A stretch of 23,194 bases of DNA from a virus, in the IMG/VR virus record IMGVR_UViG_3300033291_000005, positions 1 through 23,194 of that record, one strand, 5' to 3'. The translations under genes were made by a program, and so were the position numbers. Position 1 is the stretch's first letter, and every line of letters starts with the position of its first letter. This document shows, piece by piece, positions 1,937 through 10,752 of the stretch. Below the pieces are notes generated by a model that was not told the origin of the DNA, made no database searches, and saw only the letters and a list, made by a program, of their open reading frames with translations.

Positions 1937-4290
1937 CAGGACACCAGCCTCATCACGGTCGTGCAGAGCGCGGTGGGGTCATACTCGATCGAGGTATTCA
2001 CCACGTAGCAGTAGATATCCAACCCAGAATCCGGATTGACGAACCTGATTACGCTATTGATCTTCAGGTCCGGCAAGAACGCGTGCTTCACGGTGAGCTG
2101 GTTCGTCACCGACGTCGCCCTGCTGAGCCGGGCCCTCGCGATCGTGTCCAGGGTCGCCTGGTCCGCGGCCTCCACGCCCTCCTCGACCTGAGTGATCCAG
2201 CGCCCTCGCGAGGAGTAGCTGTAGGGGCTGCCGGGATCCTCGTTCGTGGCCACCGAGGTCAGCGCTGCATTGTCGCCGTCGCCTTGGCCGATCACGAGGT
2301 AGCGATTCGGGATCGAGTAGATGTCCCGGTCCCTGATCCAGGACGGATCCATCAGGCTCTGTGGCCCGTCGGAGAACGGCGCGATACTCTCGTAGACAGG
2401 CACGCGATCCGAGGGCTGCACGTACGGCACCGCCTGGTACCGACCCCAGCCGTCGCAGAACAGGGAGAAATACCCGGCCGCGTCCAGCAGATCATTGATC
2501 ACCCTCAGCCGCGTCGTGCCGACCTGCCACACCATCGCGGCCGCCAGCACCGTGGCGTCCGGCTCGATGGCCGGCGTGACTTCTCCGGTCTCCTCGATCA
2601 GCGTCTTGACCGTGTCAATGACGTTGGCCCCGACGTCCACCGAGTAGGCCGCGATCCCGTCGGGATCTCCGCTGGCAATGTCCTGGTCGAGGACGCTCAG
2701 CTTGTCCGCCAGCTCCACCTGGCGGCTCAGGCCCTGGTCGCCCCAGTTCTCCACCGGTGCCGCGCACAGGAAGACGCCGGTCGGCACCTGCCTGCCGTCC
2801 GGATCGTCGCCTCCGCCCAGCCGGCTGATGCTGATCATCGGCCGGATCCGGACGTTCAGCCAGTCGACCAGCTGCTCGTAACTGACCTCGACCACCTTCA
2901 GGATGTCCCCGATGTCCACCGCGACACTTGAGCTCGGGCTGAAGTAGAGGGTCGTAGTACCGAGGCTGCTCTCCTTGGCCGTGACGGTGAAGGCCTGCTG
3001 ACTCTTCGGCTGCTCGCCGGAGTCGAACAGCGCGACGGAGTCTCCCTGCGAGATCTCCACGGCGTCAGCATCCGAGCAGCTGAAGTGGTCCACCGGGTAG
3101 GTGACCGCGGTAGTGGACGTGGCCTGTGGCCCCAGCGGAGTGTTGAGCTGCACCCCGAGGAAGTCCGGCTGGCCATCGGGCAGGTGGCTGTAGGTCGGAT
3201 CGGTGACCACCGTGAGCTGGCCGGTCGCCTTCACCGCGGAGTAGGCATCCACGCTCACGGTGCCGGAGATGACCCCCACCAGGTGACCGATCAGGTGCTC
3301 GTCGGCGTCCAGCAGGTCGAAGCGGTAGTAGGTGACCCTGCCGCCGATCAGCACCTCGTCCGGGTCGAACAGGGCCAGCACCTCGCTGCCCTGGCCAGGC
3401 TTCCCCGTGACCCGCACACTCCCGATCGCATCGGAGACGACCTCGGAGGTACCGGACACCTGCAGGATCGAGGTGATCGCGCCGCTGGTCCCCGACACGA
3501 TTGCCGCTGTCCCGGAGACGCCGTAGTGCGCGATCGTGATGTTGCCACTCGCGCCGGAGACGACCTCCGACGCCCCGCTCAGCTGCGGAATGCTGATCAC
3601 CGTGACGTTGCCGGACGATCCGGAGACCACCGCCGAGGTGCCCGACACCGAGTAGGTGGCCGCGGCCGGCAGCAGGTACCCCACCGAGCCGGTCCGGCCG
3701 ACGGCCGAGGCCGCAGTGGTCGCGCTCACCGACCCCGTAGCCGTGGCTGTGGTCTGGGACTTCGTGGCCAGAGTGGGTGGGTAACTGTTGTCCACCCGCT
3801 CGGTCCACGTCGAAGGCGGGGTCCAGGGCCCGCCATAGTAGCTAGTCCCGAAGAAAACCAGCAGGCAATAGTCGGTGCTCGGCGTCAACGAAGACGGCGC
3901 GGGAGTGGTCGTTCCCGTACCGCTGTTGTTCACTGCGGTATTGATCGCGCTCCCGAAAGGATCTCCCGAGGCTGTGCCGCCGCTGACCCGCATGCTGGCC
4001 GAGGCGTGGTACACCGTGCCGGACCAGCTGAAGGTGTAGGTCCCCGAATCGCTGCCGGTCGCCCGCTTCCAGAAGATTCTCGCGGTGTGAGCTTGTCCGC
4101 TGGCCGTGGTCGAGGCGCTGGACTTCTGGGTGAAGCCGGCCGGTGGCGTGACCGTGCCCGTCGTCTCAACGTAGAGGCAGACAATGACAATATCCCCGGC
4201 GCTCACTCCGGACGGCACCGGCACAGCGATGCTGGTACCCGAGCCGATGATCGTGTTGCTGTAGCTCTGGGGGACCGGGGCCGCAGTCAT
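1936..4290 (-). CDS. minor tail protein, hub or baseplate-like, with N-terminal lectin-like region
   Basis: A 784-residue minor tail protein. The N-terminal part (about 1-210) is a Ser/Thr/Gly-rich beta-sandwich-like region with conserved aromatic residues (FTQKSSASTTASGQ, FWKRATGSDSGTYTFSW), of the kind that often displays carbohydrate-binding modules. Residues 213-293 hold four degenerate repeats of about 20-22 residues built on VSGTSxVVSGxSG. From about 300 to the end it resembles the siphovirus minor tail protein that follows the distal tail protein in actinophages (RFDLLDADEHLIG, VTYPVDHFSCSDAD, LIEETGEVTPAIEPDAT, LLDAAGYFSLFCDGWGRYQAVPY), often compared with Gp37-like or hub proteins. 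GGAGG lies six bases before the ATG, and the upstream gene ends one base earlier. A role at the tail tip is inferred from gene order and these motifs. Confidence 0.78.
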   Translation of the reverse strand: MTAAPVPQSYSNTIIGSGTSIAVPVPSGVSAGDIVIVCLYVETTGTVTPPAGFTQKSSASTTASGQAHTARIFWKRATGSDSGTYTFSWSGTVYHASASMRVSGGTASGDPFGSAINTAVNNSGTGTTTPAPSSLTPSTDYCLLVFFGTSYYGGPWTPPSTWTERVDNSYPPTLATKSQTTATATGSVSATTAASAVGRTGSVGYLLPAAATYSVSGTSAVVSGSSGNVTVISIPQLSGASEVVSGASGNITIAHYGVSGTAAIVSGTSGAITSILQVSGTSEVVSDAIGSVRVTGKPGQGSEVLALFDPDEVLIGGRVTYYRFDLLDADEHLIGHLVGVISGTVSVDAYSAVKATGQLTVVTDPTYSHLPDGQPDFLGVQLNTPLGPQATSTTAVTYPVDHFSCSDADAVEISQGDSVALFDSGEQPKSQQAFTVTAKESSLGTTTLYFSPSSSVAVDIGDILKVVEVSYEQLVDWLNVRIRPMISISRLGGGDDPDGRQVPTGVFLCAAPVENWGDQGLSRQVELADKLSVLDQDIASGDPDGIAAYSVDVGANVIDTVKTLIEETGEVTPAIEPDATVLAAAMVWQVGTTRLRVINDLLDAAGYFSLFCDGWGRYQAVPYVQPSDRVPVYESIAPFSDGPQSLMDPSWIRDRDIYSIPNRYLVIGQGDGDNAALTSVATNEDPGSPYSYSSRGRWITQVEEGVEAADQATLDTIARARLSRATSVTNQLTVKHAFLPDLKINSVIRFVNPDSGLDIYCYVVNTSIEYDPTALCTTVMRLVS
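3410..3654 (-). repeat. four degenerate ~20-22 residue repeats in the minor tail protein
   Basis: Residues 213-293 of the minor tail protein read as VSGTSAVVSGSSGNVTV, LSGASEVVSGASGNITI, VSGTAAIVSGTSGAIT and VSGTSEVVSDAIGSVRV. These are four short beta-strand-forming repeats that link the N-terminal module to the hub-like part, probably as a spacer or small beta-solenoid. They could vary in number between relatives by recombination. Confidence 0.6.
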
Positions 4291-4291
4291 T

Positions 4292-6628
4292 TCACGCCTC
4301 CACGAGCTGGATGTACCGCTCGGTGAAGTCCACCACGATCACCGAGAAGGAGATCTCGGCGTGGCCAGGCCACACCGTGTTCCCCACGGTCACGTCGGAC
4401 AGAGTGCCGAAGAGCCGGCGCCCGGTGTAATCCCGGTAGCACACCACCTCGGAATCGGTGCCCGCCGCGTCCCACAGCTGGGGCGCGGAGTCGTAGGCGC
4501 ACAGATCCGTGCTGGCGGCGCAGCGTGGATCGAAATACAGCGTCCCGCTGACCGCAAGAGAGCTGCTCGTGGCCTGGCCCACGAGGGCCACCGGCTTGGC
4601 CCGTCCGAGGAAGTGCTGCTGTGCCTTCAGCCGCCCCGAGGTCCTGGAGATCTGCGGATCTCCGTGGAACCGGAGGTCGTGCTCGAAGGAGTCCCCGTAG
4701 CTGACCCAGACCCACAGCGGGCTGCCGTCGGCCACGCCGTCGGTCCCCTCGACCTCGAGGATCGGGCCCACGGCCTGGCTGGGTGTCGCGCTGAGCGCAG
4801 TGATCCGGTACTGGTTCGTCCCGTTCGTCGCCGGCAGGGTGTCGAGAAAGTCGGTCGGGATGAGCAGGCCCGCGGCCAGCGTGACCCAGTCCTCGCCGGG
4901 CGCCATGCGCTCCAAGGTCACCGACTCGACGGCCACGGTGACACCCTCCTCCGCAGCCTCGGGCTCGAAGTGGAGCAGCACGGTGCCCTGGCACTCCTGG
5001 TAGGACCCAGTGACCTGGACCGCGGCCGGTGGCAGGAGATCGAAGCTGGTGGTGACCTCGTCGTACTCCGACCAGATCTCGGCCGAGGACTGGACCAGCA
5101 CCCGCACGATGTAGTCGTTGCCGGTCACCGTGGCGTAGGTGAACGCCACCGTGGTCCCGGCGCCGAACCCGTCGATCTCCTCGAGCAGGGTCACGCCGTC
5201 GTCCGCGTACAGCAGCGCGACGTAGGCCAGCTGGGGCAGCAGCTCCGCCTGGCTGTAGACCCAGGTAGCCACGATCGGGATCGTGTCGGTGGTCGCCTCG
5301 GGCAGGGTCAGAGTCAGCGATGGCTTGGTCGAGCCGGTCACCGCGGCCGAGGCGCTGAAATCGCTGTAGCCGGCCGAGACCAGCCCCTCGGTCTGGACCT
5401 TCCACAGGTAGGGCACCCCGTTCGCCAGGGTCCCCGCAGGCAGCGTGAACGAGCTGACGGCCGAGGCGACGTCGGTGGCCGTCCCGAGGGCGTACCAGTT
5501 GCTGCCCGCGTCGTCGCTGTACTCGATCGTGAAGTGGGTCTGGGCGACGCCGGTGCCGCCCGGGTTGTGCTGCCAGGTGAAATCGACGTCGTCATTGACG
5601 AAGTCGACGTAGGTCCCGTCCGGATCGAGCAACGTCGGCGCCTGAGGCTCAGCCGGGGCGCTGACGGTATTTCCCGTGGCGTAGGCCGACTGCAGCGGAC
5701 CCGTCACCACCGCGGCAATGCGGTACTGATTCGTCCCGCCGCCGGGACTGTTGTCGACATAGGAGGTCGTGTCCTGGTCCGCCACCGTGTCCAGGTCGGC
5801 GAATGCCCCGCCGGCCACAGAGCGCTGAATCTTCCAGCTGCCAGCGCCTGGGTAATTGTAGGCGTTGTCGGTCCACGTCGTCGTGATTGCCGTGCCCGCG
5901 GTGTTGAGCACCGAGGCGACATTCGACGGTGCCGCCGGCGTCATGAAGACGACATTGCTGTCGTTCCATTCCGAAACGCCGTGGGAGTTCACGGCCCGCG
6001 GGGACAGCTGATAGGCGTGGTTGGCGGACAATCCGCCCTTGACGTAACTCCCGGTGGCTCCTGAAACGGTAGCTACCACGTTCCAGCTGGCCTCGGTCCA
6101 GACGGTGGAACCATTCCACCGTCGCATCGAGACCTGCTGATAGGAGTACGGCTCCGGAACCGTGGGGTTCGGGGTCCAGGTCAGCGTGACCTGACTATCG
6201 CTGTTGCGTACCAGCAGCGAGTCGGTGCAGGCCGCCGGCCCGCTCGTCGGCCGCGCCGGAATCGGGTAGGACACCGTGACGGTCGGCGTGATGCCGTTGA
6301 AGGCACCACTGATCGTCGCAGTGAACGTCTGATTCCCCGGACTGTAGCCATATTCCCCGGCGCCGTAGGTGTAGTCGTGCGTCTTGAATTCACGCTGAAC
6401 AATCTGGCTACCCTCGCCATTGGTGAAGGCGAATGAGCCGGCGATGTCATCGGTGTAATCCAGACTCTGGGCATCGGAGGGATAGGTGTACTGGTTCTGC
6501 GTGTAGACCCTGATCTCGAAGGTCGCCACGGTCGAGGAATGAGCCGGCGCGAGCGGGACGGACACGTCCAGCCCGACGCGCATCCCGTTACCGCCGGAGA
6601 ACTGCCAGCTGCCCCACTGGATCGTCAT
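4292..6628 (-). CDS. minor tail protein with several fibronectin type III-like domains
   Basis: A 778-residue tail protein encoded directly after the tape measure gene, where the distal tail/minor tail protein normally lies. Residues about 115-520 contain four tandem fibronectin III-like domains, recognisable by strands such as QVTLTWTPNP, AITTTWTDN, DVDFTWQHNP and the Tyr motifs NHAYQLSPRAV, TNQYRIAAV and PYLWKVQ. A further domain with TNQYRITALS lies near 540-610. The last 140 residues carry a conserved actinophage minor-tail block: GRAKPVALVG, EVVCYRDYTGRRLFGTL and ISFSVIVVDFTE. Fibronectin III and Ig-like domains on phage virions are thought to give weak binding to cell-surface sugars. 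The ATG overlaps the tape measure stop by one base, so the two are probably made from one message. Confidence 0.85.
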   Translation of the reverse strand: MTIQWGSWQFSGGNGMRVGLDVSVPLAPAHSSTVATFEIRVYTQNQYTYPSDAQSLDYTDDIAGSFAFTNGEGSQIVQREFKTHDYTYGAGEYGYSPGNQTFTATISGAFNGITPTVTVSYPIPARPTSGPAACTDSLLVRNSDSQVTLTWTPNPTVPEPYSYQQVSMRRWNGSTVWTEASWNVVATVSGATGSYVKGGLSANHAYQLSPRAVNSHGVSEWNDSNVVFMTPAAPSNVASVLNTAGTAITTTWTDNAYNYPGAGSWKIQRSVAGGAFADLDTVADQDTTSYVDNSPGGGTNQYRIAAVVTGPLQSAYATGNTVSAPAEPQAPTLLDPDGTYVDFVNDDVDFTWQHNPGGTGVAQTHFTIEYSDDAGSNWYALGTATDVASAVSSFTLPAGTLANGVPYLWKVQTEGLVSAGYSDFSASAAVTGSTKPSLTLTLPEATTDTIPIVATWVYSQAELLPQLAYVALLYADDGVTLLEEIDGFGAGTTVAFTYATVTGNDYIVRVLVQSSAEIWSEYDEVTTSFDLLPPAAVQVTGSYQECQGTVLLHFEPEAAEEGVTVAVESVTLERMAPGEDWVTLAAGLLIPTDFLDTLPATNGTNQYRITALSATPSQAVGPILEVEGTDGVADGSPLWVWVSYGDSFEHDLRFHGDPQISRTSGRLKAQQHFLGRAKPVALVGQATSSSLAVSGTLYFDPRCAASTDLCAYDSAPQLWDAAGTDSEVVCYRDYTGRRLFGTLSDVTVGNTVWPGHAEISFSVIVVDFTERYIQLVEA

Positions 6629-9600
6629 CAGACCGACACCTTCCCACTACGCTGCGTCTTCCTCGTGGTGGACCGCGCCTCCTCGAGCATCTTCAGGAAG
6701 TCATCCAGGGTACGCAGCTTCGACAGATCATCGATCGATAGCTTGATCGACACGTCGTACTGATCCCCCATTCCGGCACGGACCAAGGCCTCCGGGGCTC
6801 CGGTGTTGTTCTGCACGAGGGATGGCCCCTTCGGCAACACGCCGCCGTTGTCCATCAACAGCGCGCGCCGCAGCACGCCGCCCTGCGCGAAGGTCGCCCC
6901 GAGGCTGGTGAAGCCGGAAACCGACTGACCGATGATCTTCGTGACGTCGCCGGTGTGCGGCGCCTCGGCCCACTGGCCAGACCCCATGTAGAGCTCTACG
7001 TGCTCCGCCGGCCGGCCGACGAACCCGAGGTCTCCTGGCTTGATCGCACTCGCGGCCACGGCCCGGGCGAACGCTTGCTGCTGCTGGGAGGTGCGCGGGA
7101 TCGAGATGCCGGCCGCGGCGTTGGCCGCCTGGGTGAAGCCCGAGCAATTGTGGACCAGGACGCCGGCAGCGAAGAACTCGTGTTCTCCCTCAACTGTCAG
7201 GTCGTAGACGTCGCTCGTTCCGCTCGGCTTTGCGACGCCGATTGTGGAAATCGTTCTTGTGCTGGTGGCAGCAGAATCGCCGCGAGCCTGCAGCGGTGTT
7301 GCGGTTTGACCCGAGGGACTGGAACTCGGCACCACATTCGGCGCAGACGTAGTCACGTAGCCGACGGGCGGCTTGACTCTCCCGCCGATGCTCGCCGATC
7401 TCGACCAGCGCAAGGTTGGCGATGTCGTTATTGTCCGTGTCATGGTCGATGTGGTGGACCTCGTGCCCAGCGGGGATTGGTCCGTTGTGGTGGCGCCAGA
7501 GGGCACGGTGAAGGCTGTCGTTGGGTCGCAGAAAGTACGCACGATGCGCTGGCCGTGGAGAGTCCGGGTAACGGAAGTATGCGTATCCGTCGAAGACGAT
7601 TCGCTCACTGCGGGACATGAAACCAGAGTATCGTATCTGGTCACATCACCGAGCCCTACCCAGCCGCGGTTGTCCGTCCACACGCGATGGTCTGCCGTCC
7701 CTCGGAGCATCTGACCGCTCACCTGGATTTCCACCGTCGGAGCGGCCCGCCTCACGAGCCAAGCACGGGTAACTGCGCGGTAGCCGCGCCGAGTCAGCAC
7801 GAGGTCCCCAACCACCACTTGCTCGATCGGGACGTCTCCGCGCAGCGTCGTGACCGGAGTCCCTTCGGCGATGCAGTCGTAGCCCGCCGGCCCCGTCCCG
7901 CCCCAGACGTACGGAATCCCGAGGTGGGCCATGACCCACGCCTTCATCTTGGCGAAGATCGGCCCACCGATGCTGTCGTAGGCCTCGTTGAAATCCGAGA
8001 ACAAGGACTTCACCTTGTCCACGGCCAGGGTCACCAGCTTCGACACCGCGGCCCCGGTGAAATCCGACAACACCCCCACAGCAGGAATCGAGGGCAACTT
8101 GGACTTGATGTAATCGAGGGGATTGCTCAGGGCCTTCCAGATCGCGCTGGAGGTGTCCCCGACCCAGCTCAGGGCCGCGGACGACTGACCCTTGATCCAG
8201 TCGACCACACCACCGAGGTCGTAGTGGTGCACCCCTCCCTCAGAGAAATTGCCGGGACCTTGCAGCAATCCGGCCTTGGCCAGCTTGTTCAGGCGCTCGA
8301 TCCCGGCCTTGCCGCCCATGGCCCGGGTGAACTCCGGACGCATGATCGCCTCGCCGCCGCTCAGCGCCAGTGCGCCGCCGGTGGGCGAGTAGAACAGATG
8401 CACGTCCCGTCCGGGCGTATAGCCAGGAGTCACGCCGCCCTGGGCGAAGGGCAGCGGGATGTTGTCGATATGGGGTCCGCCGACCTTACTGCCCAGCCAG
8501 TTGAAAGCCTTGATCAATCCATTGTTGAGAACGGTCTCGATCACGAACTTGATGGGTGCTTGGGCAATCGCCTTAAGCTTGTCCCACGCTACCTTTATTC
8601 CATCCTTGGCCTTGTCGAAGGCTTGCGCAATGAGGTCGACACCCTTCTTCAGGGCGTCGAATGCTGGGGAAATGACGGTATTCCAGCCGACCTTGATCGC
8701 ATCTGAAATGAAATCCCAAGCAGGCTTTACATATTTCTGATAAAGATCGTTGAACCAATCACCGAGGACTCCCAGTGCCTTGACAATGGCGTCCCAGATG
8801 ACCTTGATCAATGCCCAGTCAGCCTTGACAATGGCTACGGCTTTATCCCAGACGGGCTTGATGTATGAATTGTATAGCGCTGTGAACTTATCTCCGAGCC
8901 AGCTCAGCCCACTGACAATGAGATCCCAAACCGCCTTGATCAGGCCCCAAGCTATCTTGATCGCTGAAACTATAAGATCCCAAGCCGGCTTCACTGCATT
9001 GTTGTAAAGCCAGGTGAAAGCATCTCCAAGCTTTCCAAGAGCCAGTTTAGCCGCCTCGAAAGTCGGCATAACGACAAGCTTCCACCAGGCGAGAATGAGA
9101 ATCTCGATCGCCTTGAAGACGAATTCCACGATCTTCTCTAAGGTCTGGAACCAGGGGCCGAAAGTGTCGTTGATCCATGATCCGACCGCGGTGAGCGTGC
9201 CGATAATGCCGTCCCAGACAGTGGTGATCACTTCCCAGACCGCTTGAGCACCTGAGGAGATCCCGTCCCAGACCGCGGTGATCGTGTCCCACAGCACCTG
9301 GGCCGCGCCCATGACGCCGTCCCAGGCAGCGACGATCCCGGCCCAGACCGTCTGAGCAGCGCCGACGACGGCGTCCCAGGCCCCGACGATCGCTGGGACC
9401 ATGGTCCCGGTGATCCAATCCACCACGGCACCAATGGCCGTCTGGATCGCGCCCCAGACCGCCAGGACGATGTTGCGGAAGGTCTCGTTGTGCTTCCACA
9501 GCAGCACGATCCCGGCGACCAGCGCGACGATCCCGGCGATGATCCACGTACCCGGCCAGGCCAGCAGCGCGCTGTTCAGTACCCACTGAATCGCAGCCCA

Positions 9601-10752
9601 GACCTTCGTAGCCGTGGTAACGAGGTTCATCTGGGTGAGGTACTTGATCAGGCCACCGGCCGCCTGCACCGCCAGGTAGGAGGCGTGAGCCTGGGTGATG
9701 GCCAGCAGGGTCCCCATGCTGACGGCCAGAGCCTCAGCGAGCGCCTGGTGCTGCCTCAGGTAGTCGAGGGTCTTGACCCCGGCGTCCCACAGCGCGAGAA
9801 GGGCCTTGCCCAGCAGCTCCAGCACGGAGCGCAGCGCCCCACCGGCCCCCTCGCCCTTGGAGAACTGATCGGCCAGCTCGCGGACCACTCCGACGGCCTG
9901 GCCGAGCTTCTCGCCCAGTACCTCGCCGACCTTCGTCGCCACCGGCTCCAGGCCGTCCAGCGCACCGATCGCGTCCCCGAACAGTGCCGGCAGCTGGGAG
10001 AACACTCCGCCCAGAAGCTTGGCCCCAAGGCGGCCGAGGGCAGCGCCGACATTCTTCAGCGCGCCGGTGAAGGTCTTACCGGAAGCCAGGGCCGCGCCGC
10101 CGAGACCTTTCTCCATGGCCGTCTGGAATTGTGCGAAACTGACCTTCCCTTGGGATACCAACTTGAATGTCTCATCGTTGGACAGCCCAAGACTCTTGGC
10201 CAGGAGCTGCAACGCAGGCACGCCGCGGTCCTGGAGCTGCTGCAACGCCCCGTTGGTGGCCTTCCCGCCAGCCGCCATCGAGGAGAAGATCCCACCGACG
10301 TCACTCAGGCTGGTCCCGGCGATCGTCGTCGTGTCGGCCAGCAGCTTGAGCGTGCGGGTCAGCTCCTGGCCCGGCTTGATCCCGGCTCCGACCAGGATCG
10401 CGGCCTGGCTGGCCGCGTCACCCAGTCCGAACGCCGTGCCCTTCACCGATGTCAGGGCATTGTTCATGATCGAAGTGACCTGCTGGGCCGAGTAGCCCAG
10501 GCCGACCAGCTTGCCCTTGGCATCATCGATCGCCGTCAGCCGGGAGAAGCCCTTGACCAGCGCGGTGCCGATGACTCCGGCCACGAGGCCGCCGGCGATC
10601 TTGGCCCCGGTCGCCATCCCCTTGCCGACCGCGCCGGCGATGTTCAGCCCCGACTTCTGGGCTGCGGGCTTGGTCTTCTGCTCCAGCTCCTTGACGAAGA
10701 GCTGACCGTCCGCGCCGACGACGATGACTGCTTCGCCAATGATGGTGGACAT
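6628..10752 (-). CDS. tape measure protein with C-terminal NlpC/P60 hydrolase domain interrupted by an intein
   Basis: The 1374-residue precursor is the largest gene in the window and follows the two tail assembly chaperones, as tape measure genes do. It sets tail length and probably exits with the DNA. It has an Ala/Gly-rich N-terminus with typical lines (LVGLGYSAQQV, LKLLADTTTIAG), hydrophobic segments near 395-455, four 18-residue Trp repeats (458-529) and three 44-residue helical repeats (575-706). The C-terminus is an NlpC/P60 cell-wall peptidase split by an intein at 960-1202: GIPYVWGG..GYD before, CSGFTQ after. The catalytic triad would be Cys1203, His1251 (AEHVELYMG) and His1266 in precursor numbering. 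The spliced product would have 1131 residues. GGGAG seven bases before the ATG is the ribosome binding site and lies in a hairpin. A tail-borne hydrolase would open peptidoglycan during DNA entry. Confidence 0.95.
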   Translation of the reverse strand: MSTIIGEAVIVVGADGQLFVKELEQKTKPAAQKSGLNIAGAVGKGMATGAKIAGGLVAGVIGTALVKGFSRLTAIDDAKGKLVGLGYSAQQVTSIMNNALTSVKGTAFGLGDAASQAAILVGAGIKPGQELTRTLKLLADTTTIAGTSLSDVGGIFSSMAAGGKATNGALQQLQDRGVPALQLLAKSLGLSNDETFKLVSQGKVSFAQFQTAMEKGLGGAALASGKTFTGALKNVGAALGRLGAKLLGGVFSQLPALFGDAIGALDGLEPVATKVGEVLGEKLGQAVGVVRELADQFSKGEGAGGALRSVLELLGKALLALWDAGVKTLDYLRQHQALAEALAVSMGTLLAITQAHASYLAVQAAGGLIKYLTQMNLVTTATKVWAAIQWVLNSALLAWPGTWIIAGIVALVAGIVLLWKHNETFRNIVLAVWGAIQTAIGAVVDWITGTMVPAIVGAWDAVVGAAQTVWAGIVAAWDGVMGAAQVLWDTITAVWDGISSGAQAVWEVITTVWDGIIGTLTAVGSWINDTFGPWFQTLEKIVEFVFKAIEILILAWWKLVVMPTFEAAKLALGKLGDAFTWLYNNAVKPAWDLIVSAIKIAWGLIKAVWDLIVSGLSWLGDKFTALYNSYIKPVWDKAVAIVKADWALIKVIWDAIVKALGVLGDWFNDLYQKYVKPAWDFISDAIKVGWNTVISPAFDALKKGVDLIAQAFDKAKDGIKVAWDKLKAIAQAPIKFVIETVLNNGLIKAFNWLGSKVGGPHIDNIPLPFAQGGVTPGYTPGRDVHLFYSPTGGALALSGGEAIMRPEFTRAMGGKAGIERLNKLAKAGLLQGPGNFSEGGVHHYDLGGVVDWIKGQSSAALSWVGDTSSAIWKALSNPLDYIKSKLPSIPAVGVLSDFTGAAVSKLVTLAVDKVKSLFSDFNEAYDSIGGPIFAKMKAWVMAHLGIPYVWGGTGPAGYDCIAEGTPVTTLRGDVPIEQVVVGDLVLTRRGYRAVTRAWLVRRAAPTVEIQVSGQMLRGTADHRVWTDNRGWVGLGDVTRYDTLVSCPAVSESSSTDTHTSVTRTLHGQRIVRTFCDPTTAFTVPSGATTTDQSPLGTRSTTSTMTRTITTSPTLRWSRSASIGGRVKPPVGYVTTSAPNVVPSSSPSGQTATPLQARGDSAATSTRTISTIGVAKPSGTSDVYDLTVEGEHEFFAAGVLVHNCSGFTQAANAAAGISIPRTSQQQQAFARAVAASAIKPGDLGFVGRPAEHVELYMGSGQWAEAPHTGDVTKIIGQSVSGFTSLGATFAQGGVLRRALLMDNGGVLPKGPSLVQNNTGAPEALVRAGMGDQYDVSIKLSIDDLSKLRTLDDFLKMLEEARSTTRKTQRSGKVSV
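7190..7618 (-). CDS. HNH homing endonuclease nested out of frame inside the intein
   Basis: A complete 142-residue HNH endonuclease lies wholly inside the intein coding sequence, on the same strand but one base back (-1) from the tape measure frame. It has an N-terminal GYAYFRYP..R.YFL region, LHRALWRHHNGPIP, and the HNH core: His55-His56 in HEVHHIDHD, Asn64 and Asn68 in DNNDIANLALV, His77 in GEHRRES. A zinc-ribbon-like end follows (CAECG near 92-96, FCCHQH near 115-120). By hand count about 70% of its codons end in G or C, as expected of a real gene here. The frame is closed by a TGA nine codons above the ATG. The ATG (7618) overlaps the TCA codon for intein Ser86. No Shine-Dalgarno sequence precedes it, but TACTCT lies six bases upstream. 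It should cut intein-free tape measure alleles to spread the element; that role is inferred from the family and the location. Confidence 0.87.
   Translation of the reverse strand: MSRSERIVFDGYAYFRYPDSPRPAHRAYFLRPNDSLHRALWRHHNGPIPAGHEVHHIDHDTDNNDIANLALVEIGEHRRESQAARRLRDYVCAECGAEFQSLGSNRNTAAGSRRFCCHQHKNDFHNRRRKAERNERRLRPDS
7625..7630 (-). promoter_or_regulatory. possible -10 element (TACTCT) six bases before the HNH start
   Basis: TACTCT fits the actinobacterial -10 pattern TAnnnT and ends six bases before the HNH ATG, which would make a leaderless message. No -35 element is evident 17-18 bases upstream. The same geometry appears before the lipoprotein and chaperone genes. This is inference from position only. 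Confidence 0.25.
8635..9030 (-). repeat. three tandem 44-residue repeats in the tape measure protein
   Basis: Residues 575-618, 619-662 and 663-706 align without gaps. Each begins LGDxF..LYN or LYQ, continues with KPxWD at position 14-18 of the repeat, and then has spaced Ile/Trp residues (AIKxxW, IKxxWD). They are amphipathic and probably form long helices along the tail tube, so copy number would affect tail length. This stretch is distinctly AT-richer than its surroundings: the six lines from 8701 and 8821-9120 range from about 35 to 52% GC by hand count, against about 70% near 9300. Confidence 0.8.
9166..9381 (-). repeat. four 18-residue Trp repeats in the tape measure protein
   Basis: Starting at residue 458 the protein repeats AWDAVVGAAQTVWAGIVA, AWDGVMGAAQVLWDTITA, VWDGISSGAQAVWEVITT and a weaker VWDGIIGTLTAVGSWIND. 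Eighteen residues equal five helical turns, so Trp and Asp recur on one face. The pattern is characteristic of tape measure proteins that pack as helices in the tail tube. Confidence 0.75.

Follow-up and report, generated by a model that had tools for sequence, protein, structure and literature searches.

The 23,194-base IMG/VR virus record IMGVR_UViG_3300033291_000005, a single metagenomic contig that we call the window, carries a tape measure protein gene interrupted by an intein. We conclude, with a probability of roughly 0.87, that this intein is a mobile element whose endonuclease is translated separately, from a complete HNH gene that is nested between the two splicing halves and lies in the -1 frame. 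This reading is directly supported by the anatomy of the element, by its recurrence, by selection that keeps both frames usable, and by independent start signals in the family. Splicing, HNH synthesis, DNA cleavage and homing would follow from the anatomy and the selection, and the element would then combine an intein, which allows safe landing, with a separately translated HNH protein that serves homing.

A complete HNH gene within an intein of the tape measure gene

The features of the window on which the argument rests are the following.

6628..10752, minus strand: tape measure protein gene (host gene, exteins), a 1374-amino-acid open reading frame (ORF) with TMP_3 and C-terminal NlpC/P60 domains
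7147..7875, minus strand: intein of 243 amino acids, C1 ... HN and then Cys +1, at the site GYD^CSGF; assigned from motifs, Pfam Intein_splicing, the empty allele of locus L248 and the predicted Hint fold
7615..7875, minus strand: N-terminal splicing half, blocks A and B (C1, TADH); hidden Markov model (HMM) match, predicted local distance difference test (pLDDT) 87-98
7147..7215, minus strand: C-terminal splicing half, blocks F and G, VYDLTVEGEHEFFAAGVLVHN; HMM match, pLDDT 93-98
7144..7146, minus strand: Cys +1, the first C-extein residue, in YDCSGF of NlpC/P60
7190..7618, minus strand: nested HNH homing-type endonuclease gene, 142 amino acids, ATG to TGA, -1 frame; assigned from its ORF, Pfam and HMM matches and a model with pLDDT 90
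7388..7513, minus strand: HNH_3 catalytic domain (HHIDHD, NN..N, H); Pfam PF13392 at 4e-15 over residues 36-77, with invariant residues in an alignment of 39 proteins
7259..7345, minus strand: zinc-binding Cys cluster of the HNH protein (C92, C95, C116, C120); conserved columns of the same alignment
7646..7648, minus strand: TGA stop in the HNH frame, 27 nucleotides upstream of the HNH start codon
7190..7192, minus strand: HNH stop codon TGA, lying across the Val and Glu codons of LTVEG in intein block F

The tape measure ORF matches the Pfam models TMP_3 (4e-13) and NLPC_P60 (2.7e-14), and its NlpC/P60 domain is split by the intein, whose +1 Cys we take to be the catalytic Cys of that domain. 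All motifs of a class 1 intein are present (C1, TADH as the T-x-x-H of block B, and VHN^C), and C1, T60, H63 and N243 are invariant across 45 aligned inteins. The window intein scores 36.4 bits against Pfam Intein_splicing, for which the cut-off is 35.8. A natural empty target exists in a related virus with the same gene order (L248/L249, 3001-3327), where the L248 tape measure protein of 1067 amino acids has 81% protein identity around the site and runs uninterrupted through the insertion point, reading GGTGPQFDCSGFTQAA. The window intein is therefore an insertion, as evident by the existence of a homologous host gene that lacks it.

Structure prediction with AlphaFold2, given the alignment of 45 inteins, yields pLDDT values that mostly exceed 90 at residues 1-85 and 213-243, and leaves the overlapped middle below 60 and devoid of secondary structure. 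The gp41-1, NrdJ-1 and Mtu RecA inteins are matched by this model in Foldseek with E values in the 1e-6 range, the top match being gp41-1 (E 1.6e-6; template modelling score, on the target, 0.83). We are confident, on the strength of these models, that the intein is predicted to adopt the Hint fold with a disordered overlapped stretch.

The original prediction described a 142-codon HNH gene on the same strand as the intein, in the -1 frame and crossed by no intein-frame stop, and its coordinates, frame and motifs are confirmed by ORF and Pfam analysis. The gene starts 257 nucleotides into the intein at offset 2, lies wholly within it, and is overlapped along its entire length by a stop-free intein frame. 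Residues H55, H56, N64, N68, H77, C92 and C95 are invariant among the 39 aligned HNH proteins. The zinc-ribbon-like end that had also been proposed agrees with the conserved cluster of four cysteines, and the C-terminal part of the protein gives weak matches to treble-clef and TRASH/zinc-ribbon models. The HNH model has a mean pLDDT of 90, and its top Protein Data Bank match, though weak, is the homing endonuclease I-HmuI (1u3e; probability 0.84, E 0.048). Guanine-plus-cytosine (GC) content by codon position over the overlap is coding-like in the HNH frame (0.68/0.48/0.69), compared with 0.48/0.69/0.68 in the intein frame.

Recurrence in viruses, plasmids and genomes

Searches covered IMG/VR, GTDB genomes, phages and plasmids. 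With tblastn, the same layout was found in the terL genes of Tetrasphaera phage TJE1, Acinetobacter phage Highwayman and Rhodobacteraceae phage LS06-2018-MD07, and in a terL-like gene of a Halobacterium plasmid. In all four the HNH gene is at offset 2, and the annotation follows the intein frame: it covers only the terminase or Hint ORF and misses the nuclease. A scan of viral contigs with the window HNH as a single sequence confirmed no relatives, and an alignment of five HNH proteins found them: used against IMG/VR, it returned at least 600 candidates and at least 522 confirmed relatives, of which the best 80 were kept. Loci (numbered with the prefix L) were scored with HMMs for the HNH protein and for both intein halves, and in nearly all of these best 80 a single ORF holds both halves, and the HNH gene sits within the intein in the -1 frame. 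A scan with the N-terminal half only, blind to HNH, recovered a nested HNH gene in 68 of 80 loci, which is the prevalence within one intein family and not among all inteins, because the query was built from HNH-bearing inteins. GTDB genomes added seven loci (L175, L177, L178, L182, L183, L184 and L186) from Berkelbacteria, Nitrospiraceae, Bacteroides, Thermoplasmatales and others.

In total, at least 163 HNH genes, 147 of them with distinct DNA, lie between intein halves, nearly all in large terminase genes. One continuous intein ORF with the HNH gene in the -1 frame is present at 158 of the 163 loci, and at none (0/163) is the HNH gene in frame with both splicing halves. One viral contig has its nested-HNH intein in a metabolic host gene, a DegT/DnrJ/EryC1 aminotransferase gene (L127, 3015-4889). 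At three loci (L027, L112 and L145), two nested-HNH inteins lie close together.

Most host genes of these inteins resemble terL, and free-standing relatives of the HNH gene adjoin terminase genes in BP10, FBPa53, SN1, PAE1, Shemara and vB_EauM-23. By locus, free-standing copies beside terminase genes occur at L009 2995-3636, L011 2450-3067, L250 2459-3076, L252 2450-3067, L253 2408-2998 and L254 2265-2882. The free-standing relatives suggest that terL is an old target of the HNH family. The same association could be read differently, with the HNH protein serving another role such as DNA packaging and being merely lodged in the intein, and work cited in PMC10448857 and PMC12613952 is quoted there as assigning a packaging function to terminase-adjacent HNH proteins. 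We consider this unlikely, since the host genes include the tape measure gene of the window and, elsewhere, an aminotransferase gene, and since intein-less alleles exist. Related inteins without HNH also occur, as expected if a mobile nuclease is lost after fixation.

Start and stop signals of the nested genes

Of 142 cases, 140 have a start codon in the HNH frame (131 ATG and nine GTG or TTG), at a median of 18.5 nucleotides after the N-terminal half. Predicted duplexes with the anti-Shine-Dalgarno sequence reach an energy of -5 or lower at 48% of the HNH starts, whereas only 18% of the remaining ATGs in these stretches do so; the p value is about 6e-8 when no choice is made among candidate starts. 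The nearest upstream stop in the HNH frame lies at a median of 24 nucleotides from the start codon. At the other end, the HNH stop falls within C-terminal splicing block F in 91% of the loci, and in examples it is made by the conserved VYNL or TVE codons of the intein.

These signals bear on programmed -1 frameshifting, in which ribosomes would slip from the intein N-terminal half into the HNH frame to yield a fusion of extein, intein N-half and HNH. All the nested genes stand in the -1 relation, as classic slippage would require, but in-frame slippery heptamers are not enriched in the usable window (eight of 140 loci, versus 10.5 in control phases), and on this test frameshifting was rejected as the main route. 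Both the upstream stop and the predominance of ATG starts with Shine-Dalgarno enrichment also speak against slippage. The frame bias is otherwise accounted for: when HNH codons are permuted among synonymous positions in the 163 loci, 367 stops arise in the -1 frame versus 2746 in the other frame, or about two versus about 17 per HNH gene. The stop content of the frames therefore suggests why the relation is always -1, as this frame would carry the fewest stops, and we assign frameshifting only a small probability.

Selection on the two frames

Against the same permutation model, the intein frame contains 26 stops over the 163 loci, all in four broken loci, where 367 are expected, and 159 loci are stop-free where 24 are expected. 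The third, unused frame holds stops at expectation (2617 versus 2746). We compared 14 independent pairs of relatives: counted by HNH codon position 1/2/3, the overlap has 230/184/638 substitutions, and counted by intein codon position 1/2/3, the N-terminal half has 111/83/328. From these substitution positions and stop counts, it follows that the HNH protein is conserved in the overlap and that the intein frame there is mainly kept free of stops.

A reading in which only the HNH frame functions, with the intein a dead, gene-breaking insertion whose frame is open by chance, might be entertained from the window copy, since 41% of synonymous HNH shuffles also leave the intein frame open in this GC-rich DNA. 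The openness of the intein frame in the window alone is unremarkable, and it becomes significant only across the family. There are also a few relatives with broken inteins (L007, L008, L048, L057, L190 and L193). However, of the loci below 50% GC, 101 of 105 are stop-free versus five expected, and C1, the T and H of block B and the terminal N are invariant in the alignment. Moreover, the host gene is usually a terminase, which is essential to the phage. A dead intein is therefore quite improbable.

Two compensating sequencing or assembly indels in a single metagenomic contig could shift an ordinary in-frame HNH domain out of frame and give the same picture, but this is very improbable and is rejected by recurrence, as evident by the same -1 relation and borders in 158 loci that include the finished isolates TJE1 and Highwayman and the Halobacterium plasmid, and the HNH gene has its own start and stop. 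That the insert is instead a group I intron, which in phages commonly carries HNH genes (PMC11855218), is just as hard to credit and was rejected by an Rfam search over 6900-8200 that gave no match at E <= 1 and no conserved ribozyme core, and the splicing motifs, Hint fold and open frame in the family are those of an intein.

The original prediction had proposed a third arrangement beside in-frame nuclease domains and fractured inteins, a contiguous intein with a separate nested nuclease. The 158 loci, the protection from stops, the constraint on HNH codons, and the separate starts with enriched Shine-Dalgarno sequences uphold it. The frame offset is not explained by indel errors, and homologues do not have the HNH frame broken. 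Codon-based analysis found both frames under selection, the HNH codons being constrained and the intein frame guarded against stops.

Several properties of the window copy weigh against a separately translated homing nuclease. Its HNH start lacks a Shine-Dalgarno sequence (duplex energy -0.9) and a search near the gene for a sigma-70-like promoter found none, so expression of the window HNH gene is only presumed. The protein is 142 amino acids long, compared with a family median of 200, and it sits on a long branch of the HNH tree. The evidence for selection is that of the family, as the window copy has no close relative with which to form a test of its own.

An antisense version

Three loci recovered through the N-terminal half and apparently without HNH (L113, L168 and L169) have an ORF on the minus strand that encodes zinc-finger repeats and a DUF559/Vsr-like nuclease, and the intein is open on the opposite strand.

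L113, 3735-4637, minus strand: antisense nuclease in intein 3501-4745
L168/L169, 3579-4892, minus strand: antisense nuclease in intein 3501-4799

The host gene at L168 resembles a Mu F-like head gene. A further scan found the same layout in L219, L225, L237 and L244, which brings the distinct inteins to six; in each of them the nuclease gene occupies the codon-aligned antisense frame. Codons TTA, CTA and TCA are absent from the overlap in all six cases, with a chance per locus of 0.0009 to 0.27; background codon usage was the reference here because the codon-permutation null is uninformative when the offending codons are wholly absent. At L209 and L220 a DUF559/Vsr-like nuclease shares one ORF with an intein half, an in-frame counterpart of the antisense type.

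Non-nested relatives

HNH genes also adjoin stop-interrupted inteins, as in Vibrio phage 1.245.O (L007), Brochothrix phage BL3 and some contigs. In L007 and in L008, L048, L057, L190 and L193, the intein halves around the HNH gene are broken by stops or mutually out of frame, possibly as fractured or decaying stages. Six inteins selected by their N-terminal half have no HNH gene. Locus L125 (1130-1552) is a mini-intein that may have lost its nested gene by deletion: a weak remnant of HNH persists at 1393-1464, and its frame is still -1.

The HNH tree, whose root and many of whose forks are uncertain, places free-standing genes at two or more positions among the nested genes. We claim no evolutionary direction, because bootstrap support is unsettled, many branches are long, the row F_MT838676, entered as free-standing, is actually nested, and CL2 has an intein N-terminal half directly upstream. 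The nested form had been suggested as a step between in-frame and free-standing nucleases. Free-standing HNH genes beside terL and stop-broken inteins do exist, as that proposal anticipates, but the nested form is deep and widespread and looks stable.

Proposed mechanism and relation to known systems

Ribosomes on the tape measure mRNA would read the whole region in the intein frame, whereupon the roughly 140 overlapped codons would yield a disordered linker and the Hint fold would assemble. Judging from its motifs and predicted fold, the intein would then excise itself and restore NlpC/P60. Other ribosomes would initiate at the internal ATG just past the N-terminal splicing half and make free HNH protein, their translation ending inside intein block F. 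The HNH protein would presumably cut intein-less alleles, and repair would copy the entire element in.

Of published systems, the ShiLan domain (2025) comes nearest, an HNH concealed in the third frame of a phage methylase insertion that lacks a splicing domain (PMC11855218; also PMC12613952); out-of-frame HNH insertions lacking an intein are thus already known. In both systems the insertion leaves the host frame open and has a complete HNH gene in its third (-1) frame, and a patchy distribution suggests homing. However, ShiLan insertions are thought to stay in the protein, whereas the present HNH genes occupy terminase and tape measure genes and are flanked by intact splicing halves with a predicted Hint fold. 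Related arrangements may be described in a 2025 preprint on non-canonical actinobacteriophage inteins, going by its title and its citation in PMC11855218 for overlapping frames.

Canonical mobile inteins of the PI-SceI type share the Hint-family halves, a nuclease at the position of the endonuclease domain, and presumed homing. The present nuclease differs from theirs in having a gene to itself, which uses another frame and has start and stop codons of its own; there is no bifunctional protein. Fractured genes with split inteins likewise have a separate nuclease gene between two intein halves, but here the halves form one ORF (in the window and 158 loci) and trans-splicing is unneeded; the broken state is seen in Vibrio phage 1.245.O. 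Collaborative homing, in which a homing endonuclease gene lies beside an intron-bearing gene (PMC10448857), also joins a separate nuclease and a splicing element at one target, and free-standing relatives of the present HNH adjoin terL. In contrast, the nuclease gene here is inside the splicing element and both would move as one unit.

Implications

The double use of DNA described here is maintained by selection and is a stable design, shared by viruses of bacteria and of archaea. On balance, we favor the broader view that mobile inteins include a third, cross-domain class in which the homing endonuclease is fully overprinted and translated independently, comprising a sense -1 HNH lineage and antisense DUF559/Vsr-like others. 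Overlap would thus be a general solution that keeps the host frame open and uncouples nuclease dosage from splicing. The loci provide a large and clean natural set of long same-strand overlapping genes, in which selection acts fully at the protein level on one frame and mainly keeps stop codons out of the other. Annotation overlooks such nested nucleases. The arrangement offers a route for a nuclease gene to live in an essential gene at little cost and unfused to the splicing protein. It also opens the question of how free-standing and fractured arrangements arose to phylogenetic and experimental tests.
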